DNA of 61,436 nucleotides from a bacterium (GTDB lineage Bacteria > Sysuimicrobiota > Sysuimicrobiia > Sysuimicrobiales > Segetimicrobiaceae). This document shows positions 1 to 25,783 of the stretch, piece by piece. The stretch spans positions 1 through 61,436 of the forward strand of contig DATGFS010000035.1 of NCBI GenBank assembly GCA_035308905.1. The letters run 5' to 3'. Each line of letters begins with the position of its first letter. The first letter of the stretch is position 1. A program made the position numbers and the translations under genes. The notes under the pieces are model-generated. The model made no database searches, was not told the DNA's origin, and was given only the letters and a program-made list of their open reading frames with translations.

Positions 1-359
1 TCGTCAACGCCTCCGGCTACGTGGGGTTCGACGGCGAGACCGACGTCGTGCTGTTCCAGCGGATCTGCCCGCACCTGGGCTGCATCTTCAACTTCATCCC
101 GGACTGGCACGAGGTCACGGCCGGCTACGGCGGGTTCGTCCCGCCGAAGTGGGAGCAGCACTCGCTCATGGCGTGCCCCTGCCACCTCAGCATCTACGAC
201 CCGACGTACCCGAACGACCCCGGCAACGTGATCTCGGGCCCGGCCCCGCGGGGCGCCCGCTACTTCAAGTTCGAGATCAAGGGCCAGGACATCGTCGTCA
301 GCGGCGCGGAGACCGGCGGCATCGCCGAGTGCCCGACGGCCGGCCGCGTGGAGGCCTGA
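1..359 (+). CDS. Rieske [2Fe-2S] protein, C-terminal part (5' truncated by window)
   Basis: The open frame runs in from the left edge (first full codon at base 3). It carries both Rieske cluster-binding boxes: CPHLGC and, about 35 residues later, CPCHLS followed by IYDP, giving the Cys/His pairs that bind the [2Fe-2S] cluster. In bc1/b6f-type complexes this subunit takes the first electron from quinol at the Qo site and passes it to a high-potential carrier. The stop is 3 bp before the next gene, a cytochrome b, so it is the first visible member of an operon. The N-terminal membrane anchor and Tat signal expected for the family lie outside the window; a tatA gene is found 5 kb downstream. Confidence 0.9.
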   Translation, partial: VNASGYVGFDGETDVVLFQRICPHLGCIFNFIPDWHEVTAGYGGFVPPKWEQHSLMACPCHLSIYDPTYPNDPGNVISGPAPRGARYFKFEIKGQDIVVSGAETGGIAECPTAGRVEA

Positions 360-362
360 CGC

Positions 363-1508
363 GTGGAATCGGTGCTGGCCAATCTCCGGGAGTGGCTGCA
401 GGATCGCAAGCAGCACCTGGATCTGTTCGACGAGACCAAGACCGCGCTGCAGGACAACCCGCTCTACATCGTGGGGGGGTTGGTCTGGCTGTCGTGGATG
501 GTCGTCATCGTCACCGGCATCATTCTGATGGTCTGGTACATCCCCACGACCACCGGTGCCTACCGATCGATCCTGCATCTGACGGAAGACATCCCGTTCG
601 GCTGGCTCATGCGCGGTATGCACAAGTACGGCGCCGACATGCTCGTCATTACGATCACGATCCGGATCTACCGCATGTACTTCGCCGGAGAATACAAGAA
701 GCCGGGCGAGCTGTCATGGATGATTCTCTTCGCCTCGCTCGTGCTGGCGATGATCTCGGGGATCACCGGCTACGCGCTGATCTGGAACCAGCGGGCGTTC
801 TGGGCGGCCAAGACGGTGCTCACTGTGCCGACCTACTACGACGAGATTCCGGGGCTGGGCAAACTCGGCATCGGGCACGCGATCGCCTACATCTTCCTCG
901 GCGGGCCGGCGCTCGGGCAGGCGACCCTGACCCGGTTTTACTCAATCCACTACGGCATCTCGGTCGTGTTTGTGATCCTGGCCGAGATCTTCTTCTATCG
1001 GACGCGGCGGCGCCGGGTCAACCTGTCGTTCTTCACGATCGGGCTCGTGCTCGCGTTCCTGGCGTACGTCAGCTTCGATCAGCTGGCGGCGATGGGACGG
1101 TGGGCCAATCCCAACCGGACGCCGCTGCCGATCCTGTCGGACTGGTACTTCCTCGCGCTGTATCAAGTGGTCAAGTACATGCCGCCGCTGTGGGCCGGCA
1201 TCGCCCCGGGCCTCCTGATCGGCTACGGCATGATCGTGCCGTTTCTCGACCGGACCAAGGAGACGCGGCCGCTCGAGCGCCCGTTCTTCTTCGTGGTCGG
1301 CGTCTACGCCCTCGCGATGTTCGTCGGCTTCACGGCGCTCATCATGCTCAACATCGCCGTGATCAGCCGCGACCCGCCGATCATCTTCGCGATCACGGTC
1401 GTTGTGATCTCGCTCGCCTTCATCTGGGAGATGCTGCACCGGCGGCGGAAGGCGGCCGCGCGCCCGGCGCCGCGGGGCCAGGCCGTGCGCCCGGCCGCGG
1501 CGTCGTAA
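363..1508 (+). CDS. cytochrome b subunit lacking the second haem-ligand pair
   Basis: A 381-residue multi-spanning protein with the cytochrome b/b6 layout and a subunit-IV-like C-terminal half. Helix B holds one histidine (RGMHKYGAD), but the residue 14 positions later, normally the second histidine, is arginine (ITIRIYRMYF). Helix D holds one histidine (FYSIHYG), but neither position +14 nor +15 is histidine (Phe, Phe). By the standard assignment the two remaining histidines are the haem bL ligands and the bH pair is missing. The Qo-site PEWY motif reads SDWY. GTG start 3 bp after the Rieske stop. A second, complete four-histidine cytochrome b is encoded at 1960. The family assignment is secure; loss of haem bH is inferred from sequence. 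Confidence 0.88.
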   Translation: MESVLANLREWLQDRKQHLDLFDETKTALQDNPLYIVGGLVWLSWMVVIVTGIILMVWYIPTTTGAYRSILHLTEDIPFGWLMRGMHKYGADMLVITITIRIYRMYFAGEYKKPGELSWMILFASLVLAMISGITGYALIWNQRAFWAAKTVLTVPTYYDEIPGLGKLGIGHAIAYIFLGGPALGQATLTRFYSIHYGISVVFVILAEIFFYRTRRRRVNLSFFTIGLVLAFLAYVSFDQLAAMGRWANPNRTPLPILSDWYFLALYQVVKYMPPLWAGIAPGLLIGYGMIVPFLDRTKETRPLERPFFFVVGVYALAMFVGFTALIMLNIAVISRDPPIIFAITVVVISLAFIWEMLHRRRKAAARPAPRGQAVRPAAAS

Positions 1509-1509
1509 C

Positions 1510-1776
1510 ATGTCGAAGCGCAAGCTGACCTTTTGGGGGCTGTTGATCGTCGCGGTCCTGGCGTTGAGCGAGTTCCTCGCGGCGTGGCGGGACTGGCGGG
1601 CGGTGCCGACGCTCGAACACGCCGCGGCGGTGACGGTGCTGGGGGTGGGACTGCTGGCGGCCATGGGATGGCTCGGGTTCCTGCTGTACGAGGTCGATCG
1701 GGCGGCCGGCCGGATCCGGCATCAGGTCGGCGTCTACGAGTGGGTGATCGCGATGCGGAGGGGCGCGGGCCGATGA
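1510..1776 (+). CDS. small two-span membrane protein of the cytochrome b cluster
   Basis: 88 residues, ATG one base after the preceding cytochrome b stop. There are two hydrophobic segments (about residues 7-24 and 38-60) and a basic C-terminus. I recognise no family. Its place between two cytochrome b genes, with almost no spacing, suggests an accessory or assembly subunit of the same complex. Its stop overlaps the ATG of the next small gene (ATGA), indicating translational coupling. Confidence 0.7.
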   Translation: MSKRKLTFWGLLIVAVLALSEFLAAWRDWRAVPTLEHAAAVTVLGVGLLAAMGWLGFLLYEVDRAAGRIRHQVGVYEWVIAMRRGAGR

Positions 1777-1967
1777 ACGACCGCGAGGCGCGCTACAGTG
1801 TCTGGATCGTGATCCTCGCCCTCGTCAGCCTGGCGGCCGTCCTGGCGATCGCCTGGGGCGAGGTCGCGGGGCAGCGCCTCGTCGGCGGCGCCGCGGTCGG
1901 GGTGATCCTGCTGGCGTATTCGTTCATCCTGCTCTTTCTGCGCAAGGGAGGGTTCACGGGTGTATAG
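1773..1967 (+). CDS. small two-span membrane protein of the cytochrome b cluster
   Basis: 64 residues starting at the ATG that overlaps the upstream stop (ATGA). Two predicted transmembrane segments (about residues 9-27 and 36-56) leave little soluble sequence. No family is recognised. The end overlaps the GTG of the second cytochrome b by 8 bp, so it is translationally embedded in the operon. Likely a small structural subunit comparable in size to the small b6f subunits, but that is only an analogy. Confidence 0.65.
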   Translation: MNDREARYSVWIVILALVSLAAVLAIAWGEVAGQRLVGGAAVGVILLAYSFILLFLRKGGFTGV

Positions 1968-3117
1968 CCGGGCGCTCGCCCGCCTGCTGGACTGGACGCT
2001 CCGGCTCGACGTGGCGATCAACCGCGTCTACCCGGAGGACTTCAATCCGCTCTACTACACCGGCGGGCTCTCCAACCTGTTCCTGACGGTGCTGGTCCTG
2101 TCCGGTATCTTCCTGTTCCTGTACTACATCCCTTCGTTCAACGACGCCTATATCTCGGTGCAGTTCATCACGGACACGGTGCCGTACGGGCAGATCATCC
2201 GCGGGATCCACCGCTACGCCGCGGACGGCTTCATGATCGCGGTGCTCCTGCACTTTTTCCGCAACTGGTTCACAGACCGGTTCCGGTTCTCGCGCGACGA
2301 ACCGTGGATCAGCGGGATGATGCTGCTCCTGTTCGCCGGCTTCCTCGGCGTGACCGGGTACGTGCTGGTGTGGGATCAGCGCAGCCAGCTCCTCGTCGCC
2401 ATGACCGGGCGGACGCTCGGGGCGGTGCCGTGGATCGGCGGGTGGCTCGAGACCCAGTGGCAGGGCAGCGCCGGCGTCTCCAATCTGCTGCTGCCCCGGA
2501 TGCTCTACCTTCACGTCGGGCCGGCGGTCATGCTCTACATCCTGCTGTGGTGGCACTACGTGCGGATCCGGCATCCCAAGGTGTGGCCGCCCGCGGTCTG
2601 GACGCTGTTCTCGTTGGGCCTGATCTTTCTCCTGACCGGCCTGCTGCCGGCGACGAGCCAGCCGGCCGCGCGGCCGGACACGGTCCCGACGACGCTTTCG
2701 GTGGACTGGCTGTTCCTGCTGCCGTACGTCGGGCTCAAGGTGCTGTCGCCGCTCGTGCTCGTTGCGCTCGCGGTCGTGATCACGGTCTACGGTCTGTACA
2801 TTCCGTACCAGCTGCCGGAGACCCCGGCCGCGATGGGCATTCGCGACTCGGGCATCGCGCAGGTGATCGACGCGAACTGCACGGGCTGTGAGCTGTGCTA
2901 CTTCGACTGCCCCTACAACGCCATCGTCATGGTGGCGAGCCCGCATCCGGGCGTGACAAAGGCGGCGCAGGCACGGAAGCTGTTCGCGATCGTGCTGGAG
3001 TCGCGGTGCGTGGAGTGCGGCATCTGCGTCGGCGCGTGTCCGTTCGAAGCGCTCGAGCTGCCGCGGCTCCTGGAGCGCGACGTCCAGGAGAAGGTGGTGC
3101 AGGCATGCCGGACCTAG
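1960..3117 (+). CDS. cytochrome b fused to a C-terminal 2x[4Fe-4S] ferredoxin domain
   Basis: 385 residues. Helix B has the normal pair of histidines 14 apart (GIHRYAADGF ... LLHFFRNW), and helix D likewise (LYLHVGP ... WWHYVRIR), so both haems can be bound. The PEWY position reads VDWL, so the Qo site is diverged. After the last membrane span, residues about 300-370 form a two-cluster ferredoxin: CTGCELC...DCPY and CVECGIC...ACPF. Covalent attachment of a ferredoxin to a cytochrome b implies that electrons leave or enter the b-haem chain on the cytoplasmic side through iron-sulfur clusters. GTG start overlapping the preceding gene; the stop overlaps the MvhD-like gene by 13 bp. Confidence 0.88.
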   Translation: MYSRALARLLDWTLRLDVAINRVYPEDFNPLYYTGGLSNLFLTVLVLSGIFLFLYYIPSFNDAYISVQFITDTVPYGQIIRGIHRYAADGFMIAVLLHFFRNWFTDRFRFSRDEPWISGMMLLLFAGFLGVTGYVLVWDQRSQLLVAMTGRTLGAVPWIGGWLETQWQGSAGVSNLLLPRMLYLHVGPAVMLYILLWWHYVRIRHPKVWPPAVWTLFSLGLIFLLTGLLPATSQPAARPDTVPTTLSVDWLFLLPYVGLKVLSPLVLVALAVVITVYGLYIPYQLPETPAAMGIRDSGIAQVIDANCTGCELCYFDCPYNAIVMVASPHPGVTKAAQARKLFAIVLESRCVECGICVGACPFEALELPRLLERDVQEKVVQACRT

Positions 3118-3713
3118 AGCGCCCGGCGGCCGCCCCCCAGGCCGCGGCGCCCGCGCCGGGCGCGGGCCGCCGTCCGAAGATCGTCGGGTTCCTCTGCGAC
3201 TTCGCCGTCGACGCGTCGGCGTTGACGGCGCCGGACGGGACGATGCGCGACGCGCCGAACGTCACGTTGATCAAGGTGCCGTGCTCCGGCTTCGTGCGGC
3301 CCTCCTGGCTCGAGTTCGCGCTGCGCAACGGCGCGGAGGGGACGTTTGTCTGCGGCTGCCCGCTCGGCGACTGCTTCAACCGGCTCGGCAACAACCTGAT
3401 CGGGGACCGCGTGGTGCAGCTGCGGCGCCGGTTCGAGCGGCAGAAGATCCACCCGGACCGGATCGCCTCGATCTACTTCGGCCTGCACGACCAAGAAAGT
3501 TTCCTCGGCGCGGTCAAAGCATTCAGCGAGCGCGTCGCGCAATTGCCGGGTCCCGCAGTACCGGCGCCCCGCGCGCCCGGCGGAGGTCCGGCGCGGCCGG
3601 CCGCCCCCCCTGCGGGCGGACCCGCCGCCGGCAACCGTGTCGTCGAGACGGGGCAAACCCGGCCGGGTGCGCCGGAACAGGCGCCCCCGCCCGGCACCCA
3701 GGAGGGATCGTAA
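3105..3713 (+). CDS. MvhD/FlpD-type iron-sulfur electron-transfer protein
   Basis: 202 residues. Residues about 23-145 match the hydrogenase/heterodisulfide-reductase delta subunit family (MvhD, FlpD; Pfam PF02662): GFLCDF, the PCSG motif, and GCPLGDC followed by a GNN turn. In methanogens this protein binds a [2Fe-2S] cluster and connects a hydrogenase or formate dehydrogenase to the flavin-based bifurcating HdrA. The second cysteine of the usual FLCxxC is alanine here. A Pro/Ala/Gly-rich tail of about 55 residues follows the domain. The ATG lies inside the end of the cytochrome b-ferredoxin gene, which strongly suggests a common complex. No HdrA or hydrogenase gene is in the window. Confidence 0.82.
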   Translation: MPDLERPAAAPQAAAPAPGAGRRPKIVGFLCDFAVDASALTAPDGTMRDAPNVTLIKVPCSGFVRPSWLEFALRNGAEGTFVCGCPLGDCFNRLGNNLIGDRVVQLRRRFERQKIHPDRIASIYFGLHDQESFLGAVKAFSERVAQLPGPAVPAPRAPGGGPARPAAPPAGGPAAGNRVVETGQTRPGAPEQAPPPGTQEGS

Positions 3714-3904
3714 TGGCAGAACAGCGTCCCCCGGCGCCCGGAGGTCCCGCGGCGGAGCGGGTGGGCGGTGCGCGCGCCGCGCGGGGCGATCCCGGTCCGC
3801 GTCGGTCGCAGAGCGTGATCTACTGGCGGTATCTCATCTTTTGGCTGCTCTTCTTCGGGCTTGTCTACTTCGTCACGCTCTACGGGATCGTCGCCGAAGC
3901 CTAA
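3713..3904 (+). CDS. small single-span membrane protein at the end of the Rieske/cytochrome b cluster
   Basis: 63 residues; the ATG shares its first base with the preceding TAA (TAATG). A Pro/Ala/Arg-rich N-terminal half of about 33 residues is followed by one hydrophobic segment (YLIFWLLFFGLVYFVTLYG). No family recognised. The overlap makes it part of the same transcript. It could anchor the soluble MvhD-like protein to the membrane, which is inference from position alone. Confidence 0.6.
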   Translation: MAEQRPPAPGGPAAERVGGARAARGDPGPRRSQSVIYWRYLIFWLLFFGLVYFVTLYGIVAEA

Positions 3905-3908
3905 CGAC

Positions 3909-4940
3909 TTGGCCGCCGCGGCGCTCGAGGAGATCTACGCGCCCGTCCGGCCCGACCTGGACGCGCTCGAACGCCTCTTTCGCGCGGAGCTGTCGTCCGA
4001 AGATCCGTTCGTCGGCCAGCTGGTCACGCACGTGCTCGCGACGCGCGGCAAGATGCTGCGGCCCGCGCTGGCCTGCCTCTCCGCGCGGGCGGCGGGGGAC
4101 GCCGCCCGGATGCCGGAGCAGGCCGAGGACCGGCTTGGCGCGGCCGGGGCGGTCGAGCTGATCCACGTGGCGTCGCTGATCCACGACGATGTCATCGACG
4201 CGGCCGATCTGCGCCGCGGGCAGGCCTCGGTCAACGCGATCTGGGGGAACCAGGTCGCGGTGCTGCTGGGCGACTTCCTCTTCAGCAAGGCCTTTCACAT
4301 GCTGGCGCGCCTTCGGACGCGCGAGGTCGCGGCCGCAATGGCGGCGGCGACGGTGCGCATGGCGAAGGCCGAGATCATCCAGATCAAGCACGGCAACACG
4401 CCGCATACGGATGAGCGCATCTACTTCGGGATCATCGACGGCAAGACCGCGGCGCTGACGGGGGCGGCGTGCCGGTGCGGCGCGCTCACCGCGGGGGCCC
4501 GTCCGGAGGTCGCGGAAGCGCTCGCGACCTTCGGCCTCGAGTGGGGCATGTCGTTCCAGATCACGGACGACGCGCTCGACATCACGGCGACCGCCGATCA
4601 CCTCGGCAAGCCGATCGGCAGCGACATTCAGACCGGCAAGGTCACCCTGCCGATCATCTACGCGCTGCGCGACGCGCCGGAGCAGGACGGCCGGCGCCTC
4701 CGCGAGATTCTGAGCGCCGATGGGAATCACACCTCCGGGGCCGGACTTCCGGCCGCGCCGGTGTCCGTTCTCGACGAGGTGCAGGCGATCGTCGCCCGCA
4801 CGGGGGCGGTCGAACGGGCGCTCGGCGTGGCGCGCGAGCGCGCGCAGCGCGCGGCGCGCGCCCTCGTGGGGCTCCCCCCGTCGGCGGCGCGCGACAGCCT
4901 CGCGGCCCTCGTGCAATTCGTGACGGTCCGCACCCGATGA
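3909..4940 (+). CDS. polyprenyl diphosphate synthase (heptaprenyl/octaprenyl type)
   Basis: A trans-isoprenyl diphosphate synthase of about 343 residues. The first aspartate-rich motif is in LIHDDVIDAADLRRG and the second in FQITDDALDI; GNQVAVLLGDFL and the KTAALTGAA region are typical of long-chain synthases that make quinone side chains. A TTG at 3909 gives the usual N-terminus (ALEEIYAPVRPDLDALE); an in-frame TTG at 3861 would overlap the upstream gene. Position directly behind a quinol-oxidising complex fits a role in menaquinone or ubiquinone tail synthesis. Chain length cannot be read from the sequence with confidence. Confidence 0.88.
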   Translation: MAAAALEEIYAPVRPDLDALERLFRAELSSEDPFVGQLVTHVLATRGKMLRPALACLSARAAGDAARMPEQAEDRLGAAGAVELIHVASLIHDDVIDAADLRRGQASVNAIWGNQVAVLLGDFLFSKAFHMLARLRTREVAAAMAAATVRMAKAEIIQIKHGNTPHTDERIYFGIIDGKTAALTGAACRCGALTAGARPEVAEALATFGLEWGMSFQITDDALDITATADHLGKPIGSDIQTGKVTLPIIYALRDAPEQDGRRLREILSADGNHTSGAGLPAAPVSVLDEVQAIVARTGAVERALGVARERAQRAARALVGLPPSAARDSLAALVQFVTVRTR

Positions 4941-4992
4941 CTCGTCTGGGCCTGCGGCCGGAACGGATCGCCGTCCCACGGCGTTCTTGGTG

Positions 4993-4998
4993 TATAAT
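4993..4998 (+). promoter_or_regulatory. probable -10 box upstream of tatA
   Basis: A perfect TATAAT lies 26 bp before the tatA start in otherwise GC-rich DNA. No good -35 hexamer is visible at the expected spacing, so the promoter is tentative. Confidence 0.4.
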
Positions 4999-5024
4999 TG
5001 AGGCAATCGAGCCGGAGGTGCACC

Positions 5025-5213
5025 ATGGGGCCCAAGTTCTGGGAGTTGATCATTGTCCTGGCGATTGTCATCCTGCTGTTCGGCCCGAGCCGGCTCGCGG
5101 GACTGGGCGGCGCAGTCGGCAAGGCGATGCGGGAGTTCAAGGACGCGACCAAGCCCGAGGAGCCAAAGGCCCCTCCGGCCGGCCAAGGCGGTGGCGCCGG
5201 TACCAAGGCCTAG
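5025..5213 (+). CDS. tatA: Sec-independent protein translocase TatA/E-type subunit
   Basis: 62 residues starting at ATG with GGAGGTG 5-11 bp upstream. One N-terminal transmembrane helix (WELIIVLAIVILLFG), the conserved FGPSRLAGLG hinge and an amphipathic helix ending in a short Pro/Lys tail are diagnostic of TatA/TatE. TatA multimers form the pore that exports folded proteins carrying twin-arginine signals, among them Rieske proteins such as the one encoded at the start of the window. No tatC is present here. Confidence 0.92.
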   Translation: MGPKFWELIIVLAIVILLFGPSRLAGLGGAVGKAMREFKDATKPEEPKAPPAGQGGGAGTKA

Positions 5214-5226
5214 CGGCCGCCGGCAT

Positions 5227-5289
5227 GCGTCCGGCGCTCGCCGGACGCGACGGGAGCAGCGCAGCGCGGGAGCGGCCCAAGGCCGCTCC
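5227..5289 (+). terminator. tandem hairpins downstream of tatA
   Basis: Two perfect 9-bp stems occur in succession: 5227-5235 with 5240-5248 (4-nt loop), and 5269-5277 with 5281-5289 (3-nt loop, followed by TGTTTC). The second resembles an intrinsic terminator with a weak U tract; the DUF4321-like gene starts 23 bp later. Confidence 0.55.
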
Positions 5290-5311
5290 TGTTTCATGTG
5301 GACGGTGAACC

Positions 5312-5584
5312 GTGGCCAGAGCGGCAAAGCGGACGGCCCGGGACCCCTGGTGGATATTCATCGTCGTGGTGGTGGCCGGCGCGATGCTCGGCAGCGTCGT
5401 CGCCGACGCGCTGGGGCAGTTTACCTATCTCGCGCCGCTCGGACACTCCGTCGCGGTCGGCGTGGATCCGCCGGTCACGCTCGACCTGCGCGTGCTCACC
5501 GTGACGTTGGGTTTCGTGGTTCGATTGAACCTCGCCACCGTGCTTGGTATAATCGCGGCGGTATTCGTATTCCGGTTGCTGTAG
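5312..5584 (+). CDS. DUF4321-like small membrane protein
   Basis: 90 residues with two hydrophobic helices, an N-terminal one around WWIFIVVVVAGAMLGSVVAD and a C-terminal one ending VFVFRLL. The C-terminal pattern TLGFVVRLNLATVLGI resembles the DUF4321 family (PF14209), which in Firmicutes and relatives is often encoded near radC and mreB, exactly as here. The function is unknown; the genomic link to the cell-shape operon is the best clue. GTG start. A strong promoter lies inside its 3' end. Confidence 0.7.
   Translation: MARAAKRTARDPWWIFIVVVVAGAMLGSVVADALGQFTYLAPLGHSVAVGVDPPVTLDLRVLTVTLGFVVRLNLATVLGIIAAVFVFRLL
5525..5553 (+). promoter_or_regulatory. sigma-70-type promoter inside the DUF4321-like gene, upstream of radC
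   Basis: TTGAAC at 5525-5530, a 17-bp spacer and TATAAT at 5548-5553, with an extended -10 (TGg). It lies about 140 bp before radC and could drive radC and the following mre genes. Confidence 0.6.
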
Positions 5585-14493: not shown

Positions 14494-16426
<1,933 letters not shown>

Positions 16427-16427
<1 letters not shown>

Positions 16428-16765
16428 TGGATTCACGCCGCAAGGCGCTCCTTGCAGCCGATGCCGCGGAGTCCAAGCTTGCCGGCAACGTGATCGTGCT
16501 CGACCTCCAGGAACACACGCCGGTCACCGATTTCTTCGTGATTGCCAGCGGCACCACGCGGGTCCAGATTCGGGCGATCATCGACGCGATCGAGGAGGCC
16601 TTGAAGGAGGCCGGCGCGCCGCGGCCGCGCGCCGAGGGCCGGGACGACGGCCGCTGGGTGCTGCTCGATTTCGGCGACGTGGTGGTGCACGTGATGAACC
16701 CGCGGGAGCGCGAGTACTACAACCTCGAGCGCCTGTGGGGCGATACGCCCATCCTCGAGCGGTAG
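16427..16765 (+). CDS. rsfS: ribosomal silencing factor RsfS
   Basis: 112 residues: VIVLDLQEHTPVTDFFVIASG and WVLLDFGDVVVHVM followed by REYYNLERLWGD are the family hallmarks (Iojap/RsfS). It binds L14 and blocks subunit joining when nutrients are scarce. The GTG overlaps the nadD stop (TAGTG), the usual nadD-rsfS arrangement. Confidence 0.95.
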
Positions 16766-17677
16766 ATGCTGCTGACGCTGCGCCCGGCCGAGAGCGGGGA
16801 CGCGGAGCACCTGCTGCGTCTCTACGAGGGCGTCTACCACGGCGGCTACTCGGCATGCTTCGGCCGGTACGGTACCCTCGGGCCGAAGGACGTCTGGTGG
16901 ATTCAGTCCGAGAAAGACGTGGTCGTGATCGAATTGAACAAGGAGCCGGCCGGCCTGCTCGTCTTCGGCCGCGACAAGAACCGGCTGCTCGCCGAGGAAG
17001 TGCTGCTGGTGCCGGACGCGCTGCGGCATACCCCGACGGCGCAGGCGCTGCGTACGGTGGTCGACCGGGTTGATGCGGAGCTGACCCGGCGGTTCCAGGA
17101 GGCCCGGCAGGACCACCTTCGCCTCCGCACGATGGAGCGCAATCCGCTCGGCATGCTCCTTGTCATGTCCGGACGTTTCACCGTCGCCGACGCGCTCGTC
17201 ATCTCGAGTCTCGATCTGCCGTCCGCGGCCGCCGGCGCCGAGCCGGCGCCGGACGCGGGCGTGGTGCCCGAGGGCTATGTTGTCCGGCGGGCGTTCGCCG
17301 GTCAAGACGAAGAAGCCGTCGCCCAACTGGACAAGGAGTGCCTCGGCGGCCGCGCGGAGCGCCACGAGCTTGCCCATCATCTGGCCGGCCGGGACGCGCG
17401 CACGTTTCTCGCGACCCGCGACGGCTACCCCGTCGGGTTTGTGATGGCCGCCGCGCGCGATGGGGTGGGGGAGTGGCGGCTCGGCGTACGCGAGACGCAT
17501 CGCCGCCGCGGACTCGGCACGGCGCTGGCCCGCACTGCCCTCGCCGCCCTCGGTGCCCGCGGTGTGCACATGGTCGTCGGCACGCACTGGGCCGGCGACG
17601 CGGTCGCGGAAGCGTTCGGGTCCGCGCTCGACTTCACGACCGAGCGCGTCTATCTCTACGCGGAACGGCCGCTTTGA
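16766..17677 (+). CDS. tandem GNAT acetyltransferase
   Basis: 303 residues with an ATG immediately after the rsfS stop. Two GNAT-like halves: a poorly conserved N-terminal one (TLRPAESGDAEHLLRLY) and a C-terminal one with the acetyl-CoA binding signature ETHRRRGLGTALARTAL (about residues 242-258) preceded by YPVGFVMAAARDGVGEW. The substrate is unknown. The tight coupling to rsfS suggests cotranscription but not necessarily a related function. Confidence 0.75.
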   Translation: MLLTLRPAESGDAEHLLRLYEGVYHGGYSACFGRYGTLGPKDVWWIQSEKDVVVIELNKEPAGLLVFGRDKNRLLAEEVLLVPDALRHTPTAQALRTVVDRVDAELTRRFQEARQDHLRLRTMERNPLGMLLVMSGRFTVADALVISSLDLPSAAAGAEPAPDAGVVPEGYVVRRAFAGQDEEAVAQLDKECLGGRAERHELAHHLAGRDARTFLATRDGYPVGFVMAAARDGVGEWRLGVRETHRRRGLGTALARTALAALGARGVHMVVGTHWAGDAVAEAFGSALDFTTERVYLYAERPL

Positions 17678-17715
17678 GGGTGATCTCGGTGAGCCCCGGT
17701 GGCGCGTCCGGGGCG

Positions 17716-17744
17716 TAGACCGTCTCTAAGTCCTCCGGTATAAT
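17716..17744 (+). promoter_or_regulatory. promoter of tRNA-Ala
   Basis: TAGACC at 17716-17721, a 17-bp spacer and TATAAT at 17739-17744, 25 bp before the tRNA 5' end. Confidence 0.55.
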
Positions 17745-17769
17745 ACGCATTGTCCCGTACGTGACGCGT

Positions 17770-17844
17770 GGGGCTGTAGCTCAGCGGGAGAGCGCCTCTT
17801 TGGCGTAGAGGAGGTCGAGGGTTCAATTCCCTCCAGCTCCACCA
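17770..17844 (+). tRNA. tRNA-Ala (anticodon GGC), CCA encoded
   Basis: A 75-nt cloverleaf. The acceptor stem GGGGCTG pairs with CAGCTCC (one G-T pair), the D-arm is AGCTCAGCGGGAGAGC, the anticodon stem CCTCT/AGAGG encloses TTGGCGT with anticodon GGC, and the T-loop GTTCAAT sits on a GAGGG/CCCTC stem. The 3' CCA is encoded. Its 3' half is the left attachment site of the downstream integrated element. Confidence 0.95.
17791..17844 (+). repeat. attL: tRNA-Ala 3' part, 54-bp direct repeat copy 1
   Basis: These 54 bp (anticodon arm to CCA) are identical to 23259-23312. The two copies bracket the integrase-bearing element, and the left copy belongs to the intact tRNA gene, as expected of an integrase that targets a tRNA 3' end and restores the gene. 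Confidence 0.9.
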
Positions 17845-17851
17845 GTAATTA

Positions 17852-19105
17852 CTAGGCTTGGCGCGTTGCGGTTGCTCCGTTCAAAACCCCAGTTTGTATT
17901 AGAAGAGTATTAGAGATCTCCGCAGCCAGCTCTTGGCTACGCACGTCCGCGTGAACATAGCGGTCCTGTGTAAATGAGGCCCGGCTGTGACCAAGGCGGT
18001 CGGCTATGTGCCGGGCATCGACCCGCTGCGCGTTGAGCCAGGTGGCTTGCAGATGTCTCAGGTCGTGGAGTCGAAACCGCGGGCACTTCTCGGCCAGCCG
18101 TTCGAGCCGAGGAAAATGGTCCCGGTTACGCAGATTGGACGGGTTGAGCGGCCGGCCGGTTGGGCCTACGAACAAGAGGCCGCTGTCCCTGTACTGCTCT
18201 CCGAGCCGGAGCCGCTGCTCCTTCTTCCACACAAGCGCTGCCCGCATCGCCTCGACAGCCTTGCCCGGCAACAGTACCGTCCGTTGCCCGCGCTTTGTCT
18301 TTGGCTTCCCGTAAGCCGGGTTGCGACCCGCGCGGCGTAGCGTCCGCTCGATGTTGATACACTGGCCATCAAACGCCTCTTCGGACAGTCCAAGTAACTC
18401 CCGCAGCCTCGCGCCCGTTCCAGCCGCGGTGACGTACAGCGCGTATTCGGCTGGGGTAGTCGTGGCTCGCGCGTCCTCCAGGTAGACTTGGAGCTGCTGG
18501 ACAGTCGGCAACGTGGGCTCGTACTCGTCGGCGCTCGGGGGCGTCGTGCTTGCACAAGGGTTCTTCAGAATGCGGCCAGCTTTGACTGCCTGCTCCAGCG
18601 CCGTATGAAGCAGTTGGGCCACGCGCTTCACCGTTGATCGGCTCGTGCCGCCATCGAGCAGGAAGGTGTAGAGGCCGTCGATAGCCGGCGCTCCGAGGCG
18701 GGAGAGTGGCACGTGGCCGAGCCGCGGAGCGATGTAGCAGCGGATCAGCATCTCCTCCAGCTCTTGCGTCTTAGGCCGAATCAAGCCCCTCGCGACCCGC
18801 TCTCGCGTCCACGACTGCAAGTAGTCTTGGGTGCGGAGGTGCGCCGAAGCGTTCGGACCCGCCCCGGCCCCAAACAACGGATGGTGCTGTAACTGCCGTG
18901 CGAACTGGTCCGCCTCGCGTCGACTGGCAAAACCCGAGTACCATTTGTACCGTCGTCTTCCCGTCGCAGGATCTCGGCCGGCGTAACAGGCCACGTAGAA
19001 CTTCCTATTTCGCTGAACGATGCAAGTACCGGACAAGCTCCACCCCCTTGGTTGCAGTTCTTGAGGGGGCAGGGTTCGCACGGAAGCGAGCTTTCTCCTA
19101 GACAT
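17852..19105 (-). CDS. int: tyrosine recombinase / phage-type integrase
   Basis: 417 residues. An N-terminal Arm-binding-like region (YYxxWYSGFASRREADQF pattern around residues 53-72), a SAM-like core-binding domain (residues about 90-185), and the catalytic domain with the first Arg in GARLRELLGL, the Lys in KTKRGQRTV, the HxLR box in LHDLRHLQAT, LGHS and the nucleophile Tyr in RYVHAD. All catalytic residues are present, so it is probably active. The stop codon lies 7 bp beyond the tRNA CCA. A frameshifted homologue lies behind attR at 23321-23680. Confidence 0.93.
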   Translation of the reverse strand: MSRRKLASVRTLPPQELQPRGWSLSGTCIVQRNRKFYVACYAGRDPATGRRRYKWYSGFASRREADQFARQLQHHPLFGAGAGPNASAHLRTQDYLQSWTRERVARGLIRPKTQELEEMLIRCYIAPRLGHVPLSRLGAPAIDGLYTFLLDGGTSRSTVKRVAQLLHTALEQAVKAGRILKNPCASTTPPSADEYEPTLPTVQQLQVYLEDARATTTPAEYALYVTAAGTGARLRELLGLSEEAFDGQCINIERTLRRAGRNPAYGKPKTKRGQRTVLLPGKAVEAMRAALVWKKEQRLRLGEQYRDSGLLFVGPTGRPLNPSNLRNRDHFPRLERLAEKCPRFRLHDLRHLQATWLNAQRVDARHIADRLGHSRASFTQDRYVHADVRSQELAAEISNTLLIQTGVLNGATATRQA

Positions 19106-19396
19106 GGCCGGCGGCTCCGGCCAAGCGTGGGAAGTAGACCTGATCGAGACCGGTTACGGAAGGGGGAAAGTCGGTGGGAGCGGGCGCGCGGGTGACGGTC
19201 TGGGTGAACATGAGATTCCAGTCCATTCTACCGGACCCGGTGATGCTGCGAGCGAAAGCCCGTTCGCAAGCCAGGGGTCAGCCTCTTGCGACGAGGGACG
19301 CGTTCTCCAGTGAAAGGAGTTCAGACGTTAAAATGGAAGGTCCGGCTGAAACCAGCGGTCCGAGGACGCCGCTCGAAATAAGGAGGGGAAAGCGCG

Positions 19397-20203
19397 ATGG
19401 CGGCCGGAGGGGAACGGGCAGCGGGATCGGCGGGCGTGCAGGGCGAGTTGTGGGGCGGCCGGGCAAAGGATTGGGCCGAAGTGCAGGAGCCCGTCCACCG
19501 GCCTATGTACGAGGCGGTGCTCGCCAGTGTTGAGGTGGGGCTAGGGACGCGGTTGCTCGACGTTGGGTGCGGCTCCGGAGTGTTCTGCGGACTTGCAGCC
19601 GCACGCGGGGCTTCGATTACGGGTGTTGACGCGGCACCGGCGCTGATCGGGATCGCAAAGGAACGTGTCCCGCAGGGTGACTTCCGTGTCGGGGAGATGG
19701 AGGCCCTGCCCTACGACGACAGGGAGTTCGATGTCGTGACCGGGTTCAACTCATTTCAATTCGCCGCGACCCCGGCCAACGCGCTTAGGGAAGCACGTCG
19801 GGTCGCGCGCCCCAACGCACCAATCGTCGTCACCACATGGGGGAAGCCGGAGCGCTGCGAGACTGCGCGGTACCTGCAGGCCTTACGCACACTTCTGCCG
19901 CCCGCGCCTCCAGGGGCTCCGGGGCCGTTTGCCCTCTCCGTGGAGGGTGCACTCGAAACCTTGGTGGCCGAGGCCGGTCTGACGCCACGGGATGTCCGCG
20001 ATGTGGCCTGCCCTTACGAGTACCCTGATTTGGAGACCGCTCTGCGAGGGCTGCTGTCCGCCGGTCCTGTAACCAAGGCGATCCAGACGTCAGGGGAAGC
20101 GCGCGTACGGGAGACGGTCGTGACCGCGCTCGCGCCGTTCAAGCGCGCGTCCGGTGGGTACCGGATGGAAAACGAGTTTCGCGTGCTGATCGCGACCGCG
20201 TAA
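19397..20203 (+). CDS. SAM-dependent class I methyltransferase
   Basis: 268 residues, ATG preceded by AGGAGGGG. Motif I LLDVGCGSGVFCGLAA, an acidic residue in GVDAAPALI, motif II region FDVVTGFNSFQFA and motif III region RPNAPIVVTTWG fit the Methyltransf_11/UbiE-like group, which acts on small molecules. The C-terminal part lacks a recognisable specificity domain. It is the first plus-strand cargo gene of the element. The substrate is unknown. Confidence 0.85.
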   Translation: MAAGGERAAGSAGVQGELWGGRAKDWAEVQEPVHRPMYEAVLASVEVGLGTRLLDVGCGSGVFCGLAAARGASITGVDAAPALIGIAKERVPQGDFRVGEMEALPYDDREFDVVTGFNSFQFAATPANALREARRVARPNAPIVVTTWGKPERCETARYLQALRTLLPPAPPGAPGPFALSVEGALETLVAEAGLTPRDVRDVACPYEYPDLETALRGLLSAGPVTKAIQTSGEARVRETVVTALAPFKRASGGYRMENEFRVLIATA

Positions 20204-20282
20204 GAAGCCTTCGGGCCTTGTTAGCCCTGACAAAGGACAAGCCGAGGTACGTAAAGGCTCGAACATTGTACCCGTGACCCTA

Positions 20283-20351
20283 TTGCGGTGCCGAGACTCA
20301 TCCAACGCTCCTGTTCGGCAGGAGGGCTCTACCGAACATCCGGAACCGCAA
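20283..20351. repeat. nested palindromic module, copy A
   Basis: The outer arms TTGCGGTGCCG and CGGAACCGCAA are near-perfect inverted repeats (one mismatch), and the inner arms TGTTCGG (20312-20318) and CCGAACA (20332-20338) are perfect. The module recurs at 21513-21567 with a closely similar right half. Confidence 0.7.
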
Positions 20352-20355
20352 CGAT

Positions 20356-20520
20356 GTGACCGACGTTGAGCGCCTCCACGACATCGAGCAGAAATTGCGC
20401 TGCTGGGGCTACCTGTCGCATTACCCGGATGCGGAGTGTGACGTGGCTTGGCTGCTTGAGCGGTTGGCAGAGCAGACCGAGCGCGTCGCCGAATTAGAGG
20501 CGCGGCTGCGGTGGAACTAG
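20356..20520 (+). CDS. hypothetical 54-residue coiled-coil protein
   Basis: A short frame opening with GTG just after the palindromic module, reading VTDVERLHDIEQKL and ending in a heptad-like helix (LLERLAEQTERVAELEARL). The regular amphipathic pattern and codon use look coding, but there is no clear ribosome-binding site and no recognised family. Confidence 0.4.
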   Translation: MTDVERLHDIEQKLRCWGYLSHYPDAECDVAWLLERLAEQTERVAELEARLRWN

Positions 20521-20821
20521 TGGTCGTTCGCGCTGCCACGACAGGCCGTATGTGATTATCCGCCCGGCCGTGGCTTGCCGCTGATCCCCTTTTGCGCGAA
20601 TGAGGTTTGTCTTTGGCGACTCGTCCGCCCTGTGCATCAGCCACCTTTGATAAATCTCGCAGGCAGGGAATTCCTCGTGACGACGCCGAACCCGGAGCGC
20701 AACGTCTGTCATGAACTTTGTTTCAATTGTTTGTGACTTCGTAGCAACGTCCCATACGTGCCGTCATTCGCAGCCGCTCCAGAACACGACCGGTCCGAAT
20801 AGAGTCCGAGGGGGGGAGTCT
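20521..20821. other. no confident gene
   Basis: About 300 bp within the element. A 72-residue minus-strand frame (20494-20712) exists but has no supporting features. I see no convincing promoter, RNA structure or gene. Confidence 0.4.
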
Positions 20822-21340
20822 ATGGGCTTGATACGTGCTCTGGTTCAGCACGGCTCTGCTCAGGTTTCAGCGAAACTCGGTCGGTGTCCTAAGTGCATGG
20901 GTCTTTCTCTTAGCGGCGCGATTATCGGCTGGATTGTGCTGGCTGCTGTCCTCTACTTCTGGCCGCAGTTTCCGTTCGCGAATCTCCTAACCGTATGGCC
21001 GTTGAGCTTTACGGCACTATGGGTCCTCCACATCACAATCTTCGGCGGCAGGGCAGTGGCGTGTGCGCGGCGCGAGACATCAGGTGTAGCAACGACAGAG
21101 CCTGCGGCAATCTCGTTGATTAGTAGGCGGCGGATGGTGGGAGTCTTCGCCAGGAGCGTTTGTCTCGGAGTTCTGGTCTCCGCCGCCGTGTCAGCTAACG
21201 CCTTCGCCGCCCCATCCAAACCCTTTTGCACCTGCACCGTCCACAAGCCTTTCTGTGGTGGTTGTACGCCCTGTCCCGGCTCCAGCTGCCATCCCGGAGA
21301 CTGTACGCCGGTTAGCACATTTGACGGGAGGTGCTTCTAA
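20822..21340 (+). CDS. membrane protein with CxxC motif and a cysteine-rich, possibly secreted C-terminus
   Basis: 172 residues, ATG four bases after GGGGGGAG. Residues 20-25 hold GRCPKC; two hydrophobic segments follow (about 29-47 and 55-72), vaguely like DUF3624-type CxxC membrane proteins. From residue 105 an internal ATG begins what reads as a complete Sec signal peptide (MVGVFARSVCLGVLVSAA, then an AFA site), followed by 43 residues with eight cysteines (KPFCTCTVHKPFCGGCTPC onward). The gene may be one fused protein or two overlapping products, the second starting at 21134. The function is unknown; the tail resembles small disulfide- or metal-binding secreted peptides. A terminator follows. 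Confidence 0.6.
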   Translation: MGLIRALVQHGSAQVSAKLGRCPKCMGLSLSGAIIGWIVLAAVLYFWPQFPFANLLTVWPLSFTALWVLHITIFGGRAVACARRETSGVATTEPAAISLISRRRMVGVFARSVCLGVLVSAAVSANAFAAPSKPFCTCTVHKPFCGGCTPCPGSSCHPGDCTPVSTFDGRCF

Positions 21341-21416
21341 AACAGCAGGTGCGATTGAAGCCGTGCTAGCATCTGGCGTGTCCGCGCAAGGGTTATTCAG
21401 GAACGCACGGGGACGG

Positions 21417-21455
21417 GAGCGGGTCAGGGATTCTGACTCGCTCTCGCTATTTTTC
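21417..21455 (+). terminator. intrinsic terminator after the cysteine-rich protein gene
   Basis: An 11-bp stem 21417-21427 / 21433-21443 (one G-T pair), 5-nt loop, then a T-rich stretch with TTTTT. Confidence 0.75.
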
Positions 21456-21512
21456 TGGGATCGCTGGGACCTTTGAGTTGTCGCCGATATTGTTGCCCTC
21501 GCTCGGAGTTTG

Positions 21513-21567
21513 CTGCGGTGCCGCCTTCGTTCGGGAGGAGTCTCCCACCGAACATCCGGAACCGCAA
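21513..21567. repeat. nested palindromic module, copy B
   Basis: Right half ACCGAACATCCGGAACCGCAA is shared with copy A (20331-20351), as are GCGGTGCCG at the left and the TTCGGnAGGAG centre. The outer and inner arms are inverted as in copy A; the spacer is 14 bp shorter. Confidence 0.7.
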
Positions 21568-21572
21568 ACGGA

Positions 21573-21821
21573 GTGGCTCCGCCCCGGACCCAAAACCCGA
21601 TCCAATACTGGCAACTCCGCTCGTGTCTGACTATCGAGCAGGCCGCGCAACGGGTCGCGATTTCGCTGGACCGCTACCGCGCTATCGTCGTGTTCGGGAA
21701 AGACTGTTTCACGGAGGAAGAGATTCGGAGAGTCCTTGTCGTCACGGGCATCGCTGAGGATAGACTCCGGGCGTGGGAGCAGCGGCCCCGAGGCGATACG
21801 CGAAACCCACTAGCGCGGTAG
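21573..21821 (+). CDS. hypothetical helix-turn-helix-like protein
   Basis: About 82 residues from the GTG at 21573; the frame is open upstream through the palindromic module. The core YWQLRSCLTIEQAAQRVAIS followed by LDRYRAIVVFG and CFTEEEIRRVLVVTGIAEDRL resembles a Cro/CI-type helix-turn-helix, in which 'TIEQAAQRVAISLDRY' would be the first helix pair. It could be the element's regulator, and the palindromes immediately upstream could be its operators; both are inference. The start is uncertain. Confidence 0.45.
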   Translation: MAPPRTQNPIQYWQLRSCLTIEQAAQRVAISLDRYRAIVVFGKDCFTEEEIRRVLVVTGIAEDRLRAWEQRPRGDTRNPLAR

Positions 21822-21918
21822 ACCATATGATAATCGGATTGCGGGCGGGGGGCAATTCAATAAGCTACCTTGTTGGCGATGAGGGGGAACGCCGGAGCCG
21901 CCGTGAACTGTGCTTCCG

Positions 21919-22962
21919 ATGTTGAAAGAAGATCAAGCTGCGGAACTTCTCAGGCAATGCGAGGGCTTGCTCGGCAGGCGACTCGGGGACACCCGGGACC
22001 GCTTGGGCCTTGCGGAACATCGGGCCGGGGCGATTTGGGAATTGATTGTCATGGACTCGGCCGGACAGATTGGAAGAGTAAGTTACCAGCCACAAACTGG
22101 TAGCAGTCGTCCAGACATAAAATTGCAGATTTCGGCTGATCGCACTATCTGGCTCGAGGCGACGTTTCTTCACCCTCGGTTTTGGAAAGAGGAGCTAAAA
22201 CGCGAGGCATCTACGGAATTGATCGTACAAGAGCTCAGACGACGAAACATTCCTCCTGGGAAAGTCCATTTTCGCTTCGCGACAGCTGTCCGCAGCGACG
22301 CAGGCCCCAAGGTGGAGTTGCCCGAGTTGAGGGAACGCGACTTGATTCTTCGCGAGCCAGGACTATCTTCGTTTCTCGACGCGATCGAGAAACAGCCGTC
22401 TGAAGACCGCAGCTATAAGACGCCGCATTACTCGCTCTCTCTAGTTTACACTGCGAATGCTGACAGCCGCTTCATAGGCAGCAGCGCGCCGAGGCTCGAT
22501 GCCCCTCAGACGGTACTAGAACACGGGCTGCACCGAGCGCTCGTAGAAAAGGCCGATCAGCACAGCGCCACTAATCTTCCGCTAGTCATTTGTGTGGGAA
22601 GCGATGCGAGCCCTGTTCTTACCTCCTTTCCCGGACCAAACCAGCCGGAGAATCGAAGAGTAGTCGAGGAATTCTTCCGCTATGCACCCTGGGTATCGGC
22701 CGTCGTTGTCGTCGCGATAAAATCACAAAAGCCCGCCGAGGGGGAGATTTTCCGCAATTCGAATACACGCTTCCCTCTTAGGGAAAATGAGTTCGACGCT
22801 CTACTCAGGTTGGATTTCAATCGGTGGGCATACACTTTTCCGCTGACGCCTCGGGATGCTCCCGTCGGTCCGGAGTGGATTCGTCGCGTCTGGGGTAATC
22901 CAATTTTGCGCCCATCGGGGGTTCCGCTATGGAGGTGGCAATACCAAGTAACATTTTGGTAG
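21919..22962 (+). CDS. unrecognised protein with PD-(D/E)XK-like motif
   Basis: 347 residues from ATG 21919 (a GTG at 21910 is an alternative). Near residues 40-90 the order WELIV, then RPDIKLQIS and IWLEATF resembles the E...PD...ExK core of the restriction-endonuclease fold, with Thr where Lys is usual. The rest is alpha/beta with a hydrophobic strand SAVVVVAIKS near residue 270 and a Trp-rich C-terminus. No family is recognised by eye. Mobile-element position makes a defence or restriction role possible, but I would not assert it. The base composition is lower in GC than the flanking chromosome. Confidence 0.55.
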   Translation: MLKEDQAAELLRQCEGLLGRRLGDTRDRLGLAEHRAGAIWELIVMDSAGQIGRVSYQPQTGSSRPDIKLQISADRTIWLEATFLHPRFWKEELKREASTELIVQELRRRNIPPGKVHFRFATAVRSDAGPKVELPELRERDLILREPGLSSFLDAIEKQPSEDRSYKTPHYSLSLVYTANADSRFIGSSAPRLDAPQTVLEHGLHRALVEKADQHSATNLPLVICVGSDASPVLTSFPGPNQPENRRVVEEFFRYAPWVSAVVVVAIKSQKPAEGEIFRNSNTRFPLRENEFDALLRLDFNRWAYTFPLTPRDAPVGPEWIRRVWGNPILRPSGVPLWRWQYQVTFW

Positions 22963-23156
22963 AGCTACTTGCGGGTAGAATGACGCCTCAGGAGGGATTG
23001 GGGCTCATCGCCAAGCCGATGCTGGACCGGTGGGGTATAGTTGACTGTCGGTTCGAAGCTGGCGATATTCAAGCCGGGAGAGCCGCGATGGTAGTCCTCA
23101 CACTCGCTCCGATTCAGCCGGTTTATGGGTTGAAAGAGCCCACGGAAAAGAGCTAG
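22929..23156 (+). CDS. hypothetical 75-residue protein
   Basis: ATG overlapping the 3' end of the preceding gene by 34 bp in another frame. The sequence MEVAIPSNILVELLAGRMTP ends in TLAPIQPVYGLKEP; no motif is recognised. Overlap suggests translational coupling with the PD-(D/E)XK-like protein, as an immunity- or partner-type small protein might be. A hairpin follows the stop. Confidence 0.5.
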   Translation: MEVAIPSNILVELLAGRMTPQEGLGLIAKPMLDRWGIVDCRFEAGDIQAGRAAMVVLTLAPIQPVYGLKEPTEKS

Positions 23157-23164
23157 TCCGAAGA

Positions 23165-23192
23165 GGGGAGCCCCGATCCTCCGAGGCTCCCC
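23165..23192 (+). terminator. terminator-like hairpin at the end of the element's cargo
   Basis: The 8-bp stem GGGGAGCC (23165-23172) / GGCTCCCC (23185-23192) encloses a 12-nt loop. It is followed by GCGATTGTATT, a weak T-rich tract. Confidence 0.55.
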
Positions 23193-23258
23193 GCGATTGT
23201 ATTAGCAAGGTATTGACGGCTCCTCGCCAGCCCGCGCAATCTAAGCCTTAACGATTGC

Positions 23259-23312
23259 AGCGCCTCTTTGGCGTAGAGGAGGTCGAGGGTTCAATTCCCT
23301 CCAGCTCCACCA
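23259..23312 (+). repeat. attR: 54-bp direct repeat copy 2
   Basis: Identical to 17791-17844 (tRNA-Ala anticodon arm to CCA). The D-arm and 5' acceptor are missing, so it is not a functional tRNA gene. It marks the right boundary of the 5.5-kb element and the left boundary of older integrated DNA. Confidence 0.9.
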
Positions 23313-23320
23313 TATTTTAA

Positions 23321-23680
23321 CTAGGGCTAGCGCGTGTTCGCCTCGCCGTTCAAAACCTTCGGTTGCATTAGCAATTCATTAGCAATCGCCGCCGCCTGCT
23401 CTTGCCCTCGCGGGTCAGCGTGAATATAGCGATCCATTGTGAATGACGCCTGACTGTGGCCGAGCCGGTCGGCAATATGGCGGGCGTCGATCCGCTGGGC
23501 TTTGAGGTAGGACCTCGCAAGTGCCGCAGGCCATGCAGTCGGAAGCGCGCCATTTTCAGACGTTCGAGCCGAGGGAAGTGGTCGCGGTTACGAAGGTTGC
23601 TTGGGTTGAACGGTCGGCTAAATTCGCCCACGAACAGCAGTCCGCTGTCCCGGTGCTTCGGCCCGAGTTTGAGATGATGA
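23321..23680 (-). pseudogene. tyrosine integrase remnant (C-terminal part, frameshifted)
   Basis: Minus-strand translation gives NPSNLRNRDHFPRLERL and RFRLHGLRHL in one frame, then DARHIADRLGHSQASF and DRYIHAD in another. These match the last third of the intact integrase at 17852-19105 at the same positions, with a frameshift after the HxLR box. The N-terminal two thirds are absent. The reverse-complement stop lies 8 bp from attR, matching the geometry at attL. Confidence 0.85.
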
Positions 23681-24087
23681 CAAGGGACGCGTGGATTGTC
23701 TGGGGATCATCGCCGCACCCGCAGGTGAACTCGGACCAGCGCGTGGGCTTGTGTCAGTTCCGGCTCGGTAAATGAAAACACTTGAGAGGTGCCCCTAATG
23801 AGGCACTGGGCTCGTTGGCTAAGCCTGAAACGACCCATAACTCGGTGTGGGGGCTTCGGGGCCGGTTCTTGTTCGGCTTGGTACCTCTCAAGACCGCGTG
23901 TCGCGAGCCGTGCTTGAGGCGCTGCCGATACTCGACGTCGACGATGAGTGCCGGCCGGATCGATCCACTGTGGCCACGTGTCCGGTAGGCGACGGCAATC
24001 ATCGCGGAACGTCGGCACGCTGCGGAACGGGCGCGTCTCCGGGACGCGGGCCTGCCGTCGAGAAAACGGGTGTGGTGATCCGAGCGG
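23681..24087. other. no confident gene; contains a long inverted repeat
   Basis: No frame here has family features. A 12-of-13 inverted repeat (23781-23793 and 23880-23892, CTTGAGAGGT arms) encloses about 86 bp with smaller internal hairpins and may be a structured RNA or the relic of a small insertion. Confidence 0.45.
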
Positions 24088-25038: not shown

Positions 25039-25259
25039 GATCCTTCTCCTCTCATCGCGGAACTGCGCTTTCATAGTAAAGAGGTTGGGTATCGGGTGCG
25101 AGAGGATTGGCACCTCACGCGGTGGAGGTGCTAGAACTCTGTTCTGTGCAACATTGATCGAACTTTCGGTCAGTCTCTTCTCAAGACACTGAGCAGCGGC
25201 AGAATGTTCTGTGCGCCCCATGGTCCTGACGCTTCCGCGTTCCGACCGTGCGACGTCGC

Positions 25260-25543
25260 AGCATTCGTCGTGGGCGGCACGAGTATCGGCGCGCCTCAAT
25301 GGGCCGCGCTCATCGCGCTGGTAAACCAGGCCCGCTGCGTCGTTGCTGGGGTCCGGCGGTGTGAGCGGACCGCCGCTGTACGCGGCCGCGGGCGCATCGT
25401 ACTCCATCAACTATCATGATATTGCGTCCGGAAGTAACGGCAACTGCGGCACGCTGTGCACGGCCGGCGCAGGGTACGATTTCATCACCGGGCTTGGAAG
25501 CCCGCAGGCCAACGCTCTCATCGTATACCTGAGTTCCCACTAA
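25260..25543 (+). pseudogene. S53 (sedolisin/kumamolisin) peptidase C-terminal fragment, frameshifted
   Basis: VVGGTSIGAPQWAALIALVNQ carries the catalytic GTS serine region of S53 peptidases. After a frameshift near 25340 the next frame continues PPLYAAAGASYSINYHDI and GYDFITGLGSPQANAL, the calcium-binding end of the domain. The prodomain and the Glu/Asp part of the catalytic triad are missing. A truncated secreted acid protease. Confidence 0.85.
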
Positions 25544-25783
25544 GCCGAGGGCGCCGTACCGGCGACTGCCCGCGGGATGCGCTCCGGCCGCGAGCGCGGG
25601 ATAATACTGCGGCTTAAGCGTCCATTGGGTAGGCTGCCCAGTAGAGCCCCTACCGTCGCGTTTGCCTTGTCGGTTCACGGCGCGCGTAATAGATGAAAAA
25701 CTGCGTAGATTCACGAACTACGCCGCCTACGGAATGGGTATTTTGGGAAGAAGTCTGACCATCCGCTGAACAGGTTGGCCCGG

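Follow-up and report, generated by a model that had tools for sequence, protein, structure and literature searches.

Complementary losses in two cytochromes b of a Rieske/cytochrome b gene cluster joined to ferredoxin and FlpD in Sysuimicrobiota

Introduction

Rieske/cytochrome b complexes linked to NAD(P) oxidoreductases are known from the anammox bacterium Kuenenia (Kuste4569-4574 and Kustd1480-1485), and quinone-based electron bifurcation has been proposed for them (PMC12954380). They are the closest precedent for the gene cluster described in this work, which is located at positions 1-3904 of contig DATGFS010000035.1 (assembly GCA_035308905.1), from a 4.0 Mb draft genome of a bacterium of the family Segetimicrobiaceae, phylum Sysuimicrobiota (CSP1-3). 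The whole contig of 61,436 nucleotides (G000:C35) was analysed and is referred to below as the window. As in the anammox complexes, a Rieske/cytochrome b core is joined to a cytoplasmic iron-sulfur electron path. In the anammox complexes, however, a b6-like cytochrome b and its subunit IV are combined with multiheme cytochromes c and with a subunit for flavin/NAD(P), whereas the present cluster encodes two dissimilar cytochromes b with complementary losses (b1 and b2), a ferredoxin domain and an FlpD protein, and no flavin or NAD(P) subunit was recognised in it. An NAD(P) oxidoreductase subunit is not among the identified genes of the relatives' clusters; in the window's genome, genes to the left of Rieske lie beyond the contig.

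Another point of comparison is an engineered, cross-inactivated cytochrome bc1 with G158W in one half and H212N in the other, in which heme-to-heme transfer on the positive (P) side of the membrane supports turnover (PMC4330944); a structural review also draws transfer across the dimer (PMC9162462). In a complex built from b1 and b2, likewise, one half would possess the quinol oxidation (Qo) site without the heme of the negative (N) side, the other half would show the reverse, and electrons would cross between P-side hemes. The engineered enzyme is a laboratory mutant of a symmetric complex with the Qi site as outlet, whereas the present arrangement is natural, fixed in two phyla and equipped with ferredoxin and FlpD.

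Canonical bc1 and b6f complexes have in common with the cluster the Rieske protein, the cytochrome b folds, the Qo motif and, in the clusters of relatives, a c-type cytochrome. They differ from it in that here two different cytochromes b are present, one of which lacks the N-side heme, the cysteine of heme ci is missing, and ferredoxin and FlpD are added on the cytoplasmic side. The cluster is a variant of Rieske/cytochrome b complexes, and not one of the HdrA or anammox type. Engineered enzymes have demonstrated that electrons can pass between the halves of bc1, a transfer of debated physiological role; the present lineage appears to depend on it entirely. No description of such a cluster was found in the open-access literature searched, a search that was incomplete and did not cover papers on nitric oxide (NO) reductases. 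A published survey of Sysuimicrobiota mentions no Rieske or cytochrome b complex (PMC11604079).

Complementary losses in b1 and b2

Cytochrome b carries two hemes, ligated by four histidines in helices B and D. Cytochrome b1 (363-1508; this and all other genes of the cluster lie on the forward strand) matches PF00033 (E = 7e-33) and PF00032 (1e-6), and contains both halves of cytochrome b in one chain, unlike the split between b6 and subunit IV. In the alignment of 16 b1 proteins the first histidine of each ligand pair, H87 (621-623) in helix B and its partner H196 (948-950) in helix D, is invariant, and these two retain the ligation of the P-side heme. Both second, N-side ligands are lost: position 101 (663-665), which aligns with the N-side histidine ligand of solved b6, is arginine throughout, and no histidine is found 14 or 15 residues past H196. 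Also invariant in the 16 aligned b1 is Glu208 (984-986, helix D), although not in the diverged b1 of G386 and G387; Glu208 and Arg101 may be joined in a buried salt bridge at the site of the missing N-side heme.

Cytochrome b2 (1960-3117; PF00033, 3e-30), which is fused to a ferredoxin domain, has the full set of ligands, as His84 (2209-2211), His98 (2251-2253), His185 (2512-2514) and His199 (2554-2556) are invariant in 17 aligned b2. At the helix-B position of the N-side ligand, arginine occurs in 21/21 b1, while histidine occurs in 22/22 b2 and in 12/12 fused relatives; the diverged b1/b2 pairs of G386 and G387 show the same Arg/His pattern. The two b hemes per cytochrome b that characterize bc complexes can accordingly be assigned to b2 but not to b1. 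The state of the Qo site is the reverse. The motif SDWY (1137-1148; S259, D260, W261 and Y262) is invariant in the 16 b1, while in b2 it is degenerate, with forms such as VDWLF or LDVFF. The heme ci cysteine is absent from both proteins, since the b6 cysteine (NIFYC) aligns with isoleucine in b1 and with tyrosine in b2.

The first-pass annotation of the window had suggested, from the order of genes, that quinone chemistry is split between a high-potential Rieske path and a cytoplasmic low-potential iron-sulfur path. Our results support the idea of these two paths, and the complementary degeneracy of the two cytochromes b, which had escaped that annotation and is new here, is the strongest evidence for split routing.

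In the cytochrome b tree, which contains several long branches that limit finer statements, b1 forms one clade (support 100/100), and a branch with support 100/99 separates b1 and the other cytochromes b of the genome from b2 and the fused proteins. Because b1 and b2 fall on the two sides of this branch, the complex joins two old lineages and not a recent duplicate, and we rejected on this basis an origin of the pair from a single cytochrome b duplicated recently in tandem.

The ferredoxin and FlpD module

The ferredoxin domain of b2 (2878-3063; Pfam Fer4 families, 1e-10) holds two [4Fe-4S] cluster sites, CTGCELCYFDCP and CVECGICVGACP, whose eight cysteines are invariant in the 17 aligned b2. 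An AlphaFold2 model of the fused protein shows six membrane helices at an overall predicted confidence (pLDDT) of 63; its ferredoxin part is mostly below 50, and the placement of this part is not interpretable. The same model retrieved cytochrome b of bc1 in a fold search. Given the number of helices and the way cytochrome b is oriented in the membrane, the ferredoxin domain is expected on the cytoplasmic side.

The next gene (3105-3713) codes for an FlpD/MvhD-like protein, which had been taken for an MvhD/FlpD-type [2Fe-2S] protein in the first-pass annotation. This assignment holds at the level of family, with PF02662 at E = 2.8e-22 and 79.5 bits against the curated cut-off of 22.3, a match to MvhD of 5odc at 3e-19, and four cysteines common with MvhD that are present in every FlpD aligned from Rieske-type clusters. 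These four are the inferred [2Fe-2S] ligands. It does not extend to the CNWC motif of MvhD, the second cysteine of which is lacking; the window reads FLCDF at this place.

A model of HdrA2 matches the ferredoxin tail of b2 (model positions 570-642) and then FlpD (645-771) consecutively, and the ferredoxin-FlpD pair therefore corresponds to the C-terminal module of HdrA2. The likeness to HdrA2 and to MvhAGD-HdrABC consists in this succession of a 2x[4Fe-4S] domain and an FlpD domain, and in the four cysteines. In contrast to those systems, the module is attached here to a membrane cytochrome b, and searches of the genome and of its family gave no HdrA flavin domain.

Single-chain b2-ferredoxin-FlpD fusions were detected in eleven genomes of other phyla. 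They have the same domain order and retain the four heme histidines, and the existence of such natural fusions shows the three parts to work together as a unit. They differ from the cluster in their surroundings. Neither a b1 nor a Rieske gene was recognised beside them, and most adjoin COX1-, COX2- and SCO-like genes (L125-L128, L130-L132, L135, L137), a putative NO reductase or oxidase context. COX1 of L125, L130 and L132 reads GHPSQQI, where A-type oxidases have GHPEVY, and L127 also carries cytochrome cd1; these loci may be NO reductase operons. In L130, a membrane protein of 468 residues (3928-5334), related to COX1 by BLAST clustering and without a Pfam or NCBIfam match, lies beside an intact COX1.

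Gene order and spread of the cluster

The first-pass annotation listed seven tightly packed genes, and a check of open reading frames (ORFs) found them all in the same positions and order, on the forward strand and overlapping or abutting. The cluster begins with the C-terminal part of a Rieske [2Fe-2S] protein (1-359), the 5' end of which lies beyond the contig edge. Its Pfam score (PF00355, E = 0.0016) is slightly below the cut-off because the contig end cuts the gene, but the two ligand motifs (CPHLGC and CPCHLSIY) are present in full. The motifs CPHLGC and CPCH(L/F)SIY occur in 18/18 Rieske proteins from such clusters, and full-length relatives carry an RR signal.

Conservation of gene order in related genomes had been set beforehand as a test of the proposed complex. 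In the phylum set (43 genomes of CSP1-3/Sysuimicrobiota), coordinate comparison places FlpD immediately downstream of the b2-ferredoxin gene in all 37 genomes that possess the latter, so that the test was passed. The remaining six are four genomes of one genus (G008-G011) without the complex, and G004 and G019, in which b1 is present and b2-ferredoxin was not found, probably because of contig breaks. An origin of the genes as chance ORFs or annotation artefacts is ruled out by this conservation across relatives.

Proteins of 20 relatives were compared all against all to establish the order of their genes. The recurring block reads ccmC, ccmD, ccmE, ccmF, in some genomes a secreted protein, then diheme cytochrome c, Rieske, b1, small membrane proteins, b2-ferredoxin, FlpD and polyprenyl synthetase. 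The names of the ccm genes are our reading of the sequences, while the diheme cytochrome c, a FixO-like protein and the polyprenyl synthetase were checked separately. The diheme cytochrome c gene directly precedes Rieske in relatives; in the window this position falls beyond the contig end.

Named carriers of related clusters are the metagenome-assembled genomes (MAGs) labelled Terrabacteria group bacterium ANGP1, HRbin32, and MAGs labelled Armatimonadetes or Bacillota; the contig scan that found them was run with narrow patterns, and all its hits were CSP1-3-like relatives. A second phylum also carries the cluster (four genomes examined). In one of its members (G151, locus L129) the order is ccoN, ccoO, cytochrome c, Rieske, b1, b2-ferredoxin, FlpD. 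The diverged pairs mentioned above (G386 and G387) belong to this phylum as well, and their b1 retains a Qo-like motif, ADWY, although the cluster has no recognisable Rieske gene. At E < 1e-50, b1 was found in no lineages other than the two that have b2-ferredoxin.

In some CSP1-3 families a CcoN-like gene (cbb3 oxidase subunit I) directly follows FlpD (L045:7948-9363, L046:8346-9737, L047:7577-8989 and L051:5233-6627). The encoded proteins are without the heme and copper histidines of the L129 CcoN (alignment columns 62, 64, 209, 259, 260, 347 and 349). They are apparently pseudo-oxidases, retained beside FixO- and cytochrome c-like genes.

Proposed electron route and competing explanations

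Taken together, the cluster quite likely encodes a Rieske/cytochrome b complex with a b1-b2 heterodimer as its core and wiring across the dimer. In such a complex, menaquinol would be oxidised at the sole complete Qo site, on b1. The first electron would pass through Rieske and the diheme cytochrome c to an oxidase, and the second would reduce the P-side heme of b1. As an N-side heme is missing from b1, the second electron would have to cross to the P-side heme of b2 and proceed to the b2 N-side heme (bN), from which it could reach the two [4Fe-4S] clusters of the fused ferredoxin and the [2Fe-2S] cluster of FlpD on the cytoplasmic side; quinone at a Qn site of b2 is perhaps a further outlet. 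Quinol electrons would in this way be divided, one entering a high-potential path and the other a low-potential path in the cytoplasm. The half with the Qo site, having permanently lost its N-side heme, would leave the low-potential electron no way but across the dimer and then out of the membrane.

The sequence itself shows the genes, the constancy of their order, the asymmetry of ligands and the b2-ferredoxin-FlpD module; from these we infer the heterodimer, the electron route and its outward direction. For the statement in full, with the heterodimer, quinol oxidation at b1 and outward flow to ferredoxin and FlpD, we estimate a probability of roughly 0.45. That it performs quinone-based bifurcation as a natural heterodimeric complex, in which the second product is a low-potential carrier, soluble in the cytoplasm and reached via ferredoxin and FlpD, is put forward a little more tentatively still. 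The proposed route is supported by the occurrence in one cluster of ccm genes with those for Rieske and the diheme cytochrome c.

Several observations weigh against it. By the symmetry rule given in PMC12954380, heme bN of a usual menaquinone system would lie at too positive a potential for a normal ferredoxin, which calls for shifted potentials, a moderate acceptor or inward flow. In G386 and G387 (L151:1-5535 and L152) the order is ccoN-ccoO-cytochrome c-b1-b2-ferredoxin-FlpD, and a Rieske gene was not found in the cluster. The b2-type fusions without b1 or Rieske, beside oxidase-like genes, mean that the module can serve roles other than taking electrons from Qo. Finally, the soluble partner of FlpD was not found. 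The first-pass annotation had noted that such a partner is missing from the window, and this can be extended to the genome, as the HdrA2 model did not find the HdrA flavin subunit there or in its family and returned only ferredoxin/FlpD parts and weak short matches. The genome has one clear NiFe hydrogenase, on another contig, with neighbouring genes that resemble an FAD/NAD reductase and a cyclic nucleotide (cNMP)-binding protein, a neighbourhood which we take to be that of group 3b. It is not an obvious donor to FlpD, being on a separate contig beside redox genes of its own.

The same heterodimer could also work in the reverse direction, with a cytoplasmic low-potential donor passing electrons through FlpD, ferredoxin and heme bN of b2 to quinone at a Qn site, in a Q-cycle enzyme that has its own port for electrons from soluble carriers. 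Ferredoxin input to cytochrome b6f has been discussed for cyclic flow, inward transfer is thermodynamically easy, FlpD/MvhD in known systems passes on electrons from dehydrogenases (established for MvhD), and the module exists without a Rieske or Qo partner in other phyla. Such a direction nevertheless leaves the loss of the N-side heme in every b1 unexplained, and no dehydrogenase gene occurs in or next to the cluster among the relatives examined. We consider inward flow unlikely, albeit a serious competitor, and rank outward flow first because the heme loss in b1 is easier to understand with an exit via b2 than with an entry via FlpD. Less probable again is a plain Q cycle through the heterodimer, in which all low-potential electrons reduce quinone at a Qn site of b2, and ferredoxin and FlpD are a regulatory or redox-sensing attachment. 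Cross-dimer transfer does sustain Q-cycle turnover in engineered bc1. The window's genome has three other cytochromes b, including a canonical pair of Rieske and cytochrome b/c in which PEWY and the four histidines are all retained, and the b1-b2 complex is therefore an addition there; in G037, G039 and G040, on the other hand, b1 and b2 of the cluster are the only cytochromes b found, and the complex must carry respiration. The eight ferredoxin cysteines, invariant in all b2, and the four FlpD cysteines that are conserved across phyla argue instead for real electron transfer through the attached domains. An operon for two separate enzymes, with b1 and Rieske as a quinol:cytochrome c reductase and b2-ferredoxin-FlpD as a quinone-linked oxidoreductase, would agree with the b2-type proteins that occur without b1 in other phyla and with the branch dividing b1 from b2. 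It would leave b1 without an exit for low-potential electrons, and it is at odds with the restriction of b1 to lineages with b2-ferredoxin and with the tight overlap and fixed order of genes, which makes it quite improbable.

If the cytoplasmic branch is an outlet, the complex would parallel flavin-based bifurcation, with quinone in the role of the flavin, and could provide low-potential electrons from menaquinol without reversing complex I. Flow in either direction would revise the description of respiration in Sysuimicrobiota.

Remaining genes and features of the window

Three small membrane proteins complete the cluster. The first (1510-1776) and second (1773-1967) are ORFs with hydrophobic segments situated between b1 and b2, the former belonging to the conserved protein cluster c18 and the latter having relatives in protein cluster c15. 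The third (3713-3904), an ORF with one hydrophobic segment, follows FlpD and falls into protein cluster c30, represented in L033, L037 and L040 of the window's own family. Next downstream on the same strand is a polyprenyl synthetase gene (3861-4940; PF00348, 8e-68), the true start of which is likely downstream of 3861. It also follows the cluster in relatives and, as a gene for the isoprenoid or quinone tail, is probably a neighbour rather than a subunit.

A scan for defence systems gave no matches. In the Rfam scan of positions 16000-26000, the sole match above the cut-off was a tRNA at 17770-17841. Positions 20000-24000 have a G+C content of 0.57-0.60, compared with about 0.70 elsewhere in the window, and could be a foreign island.

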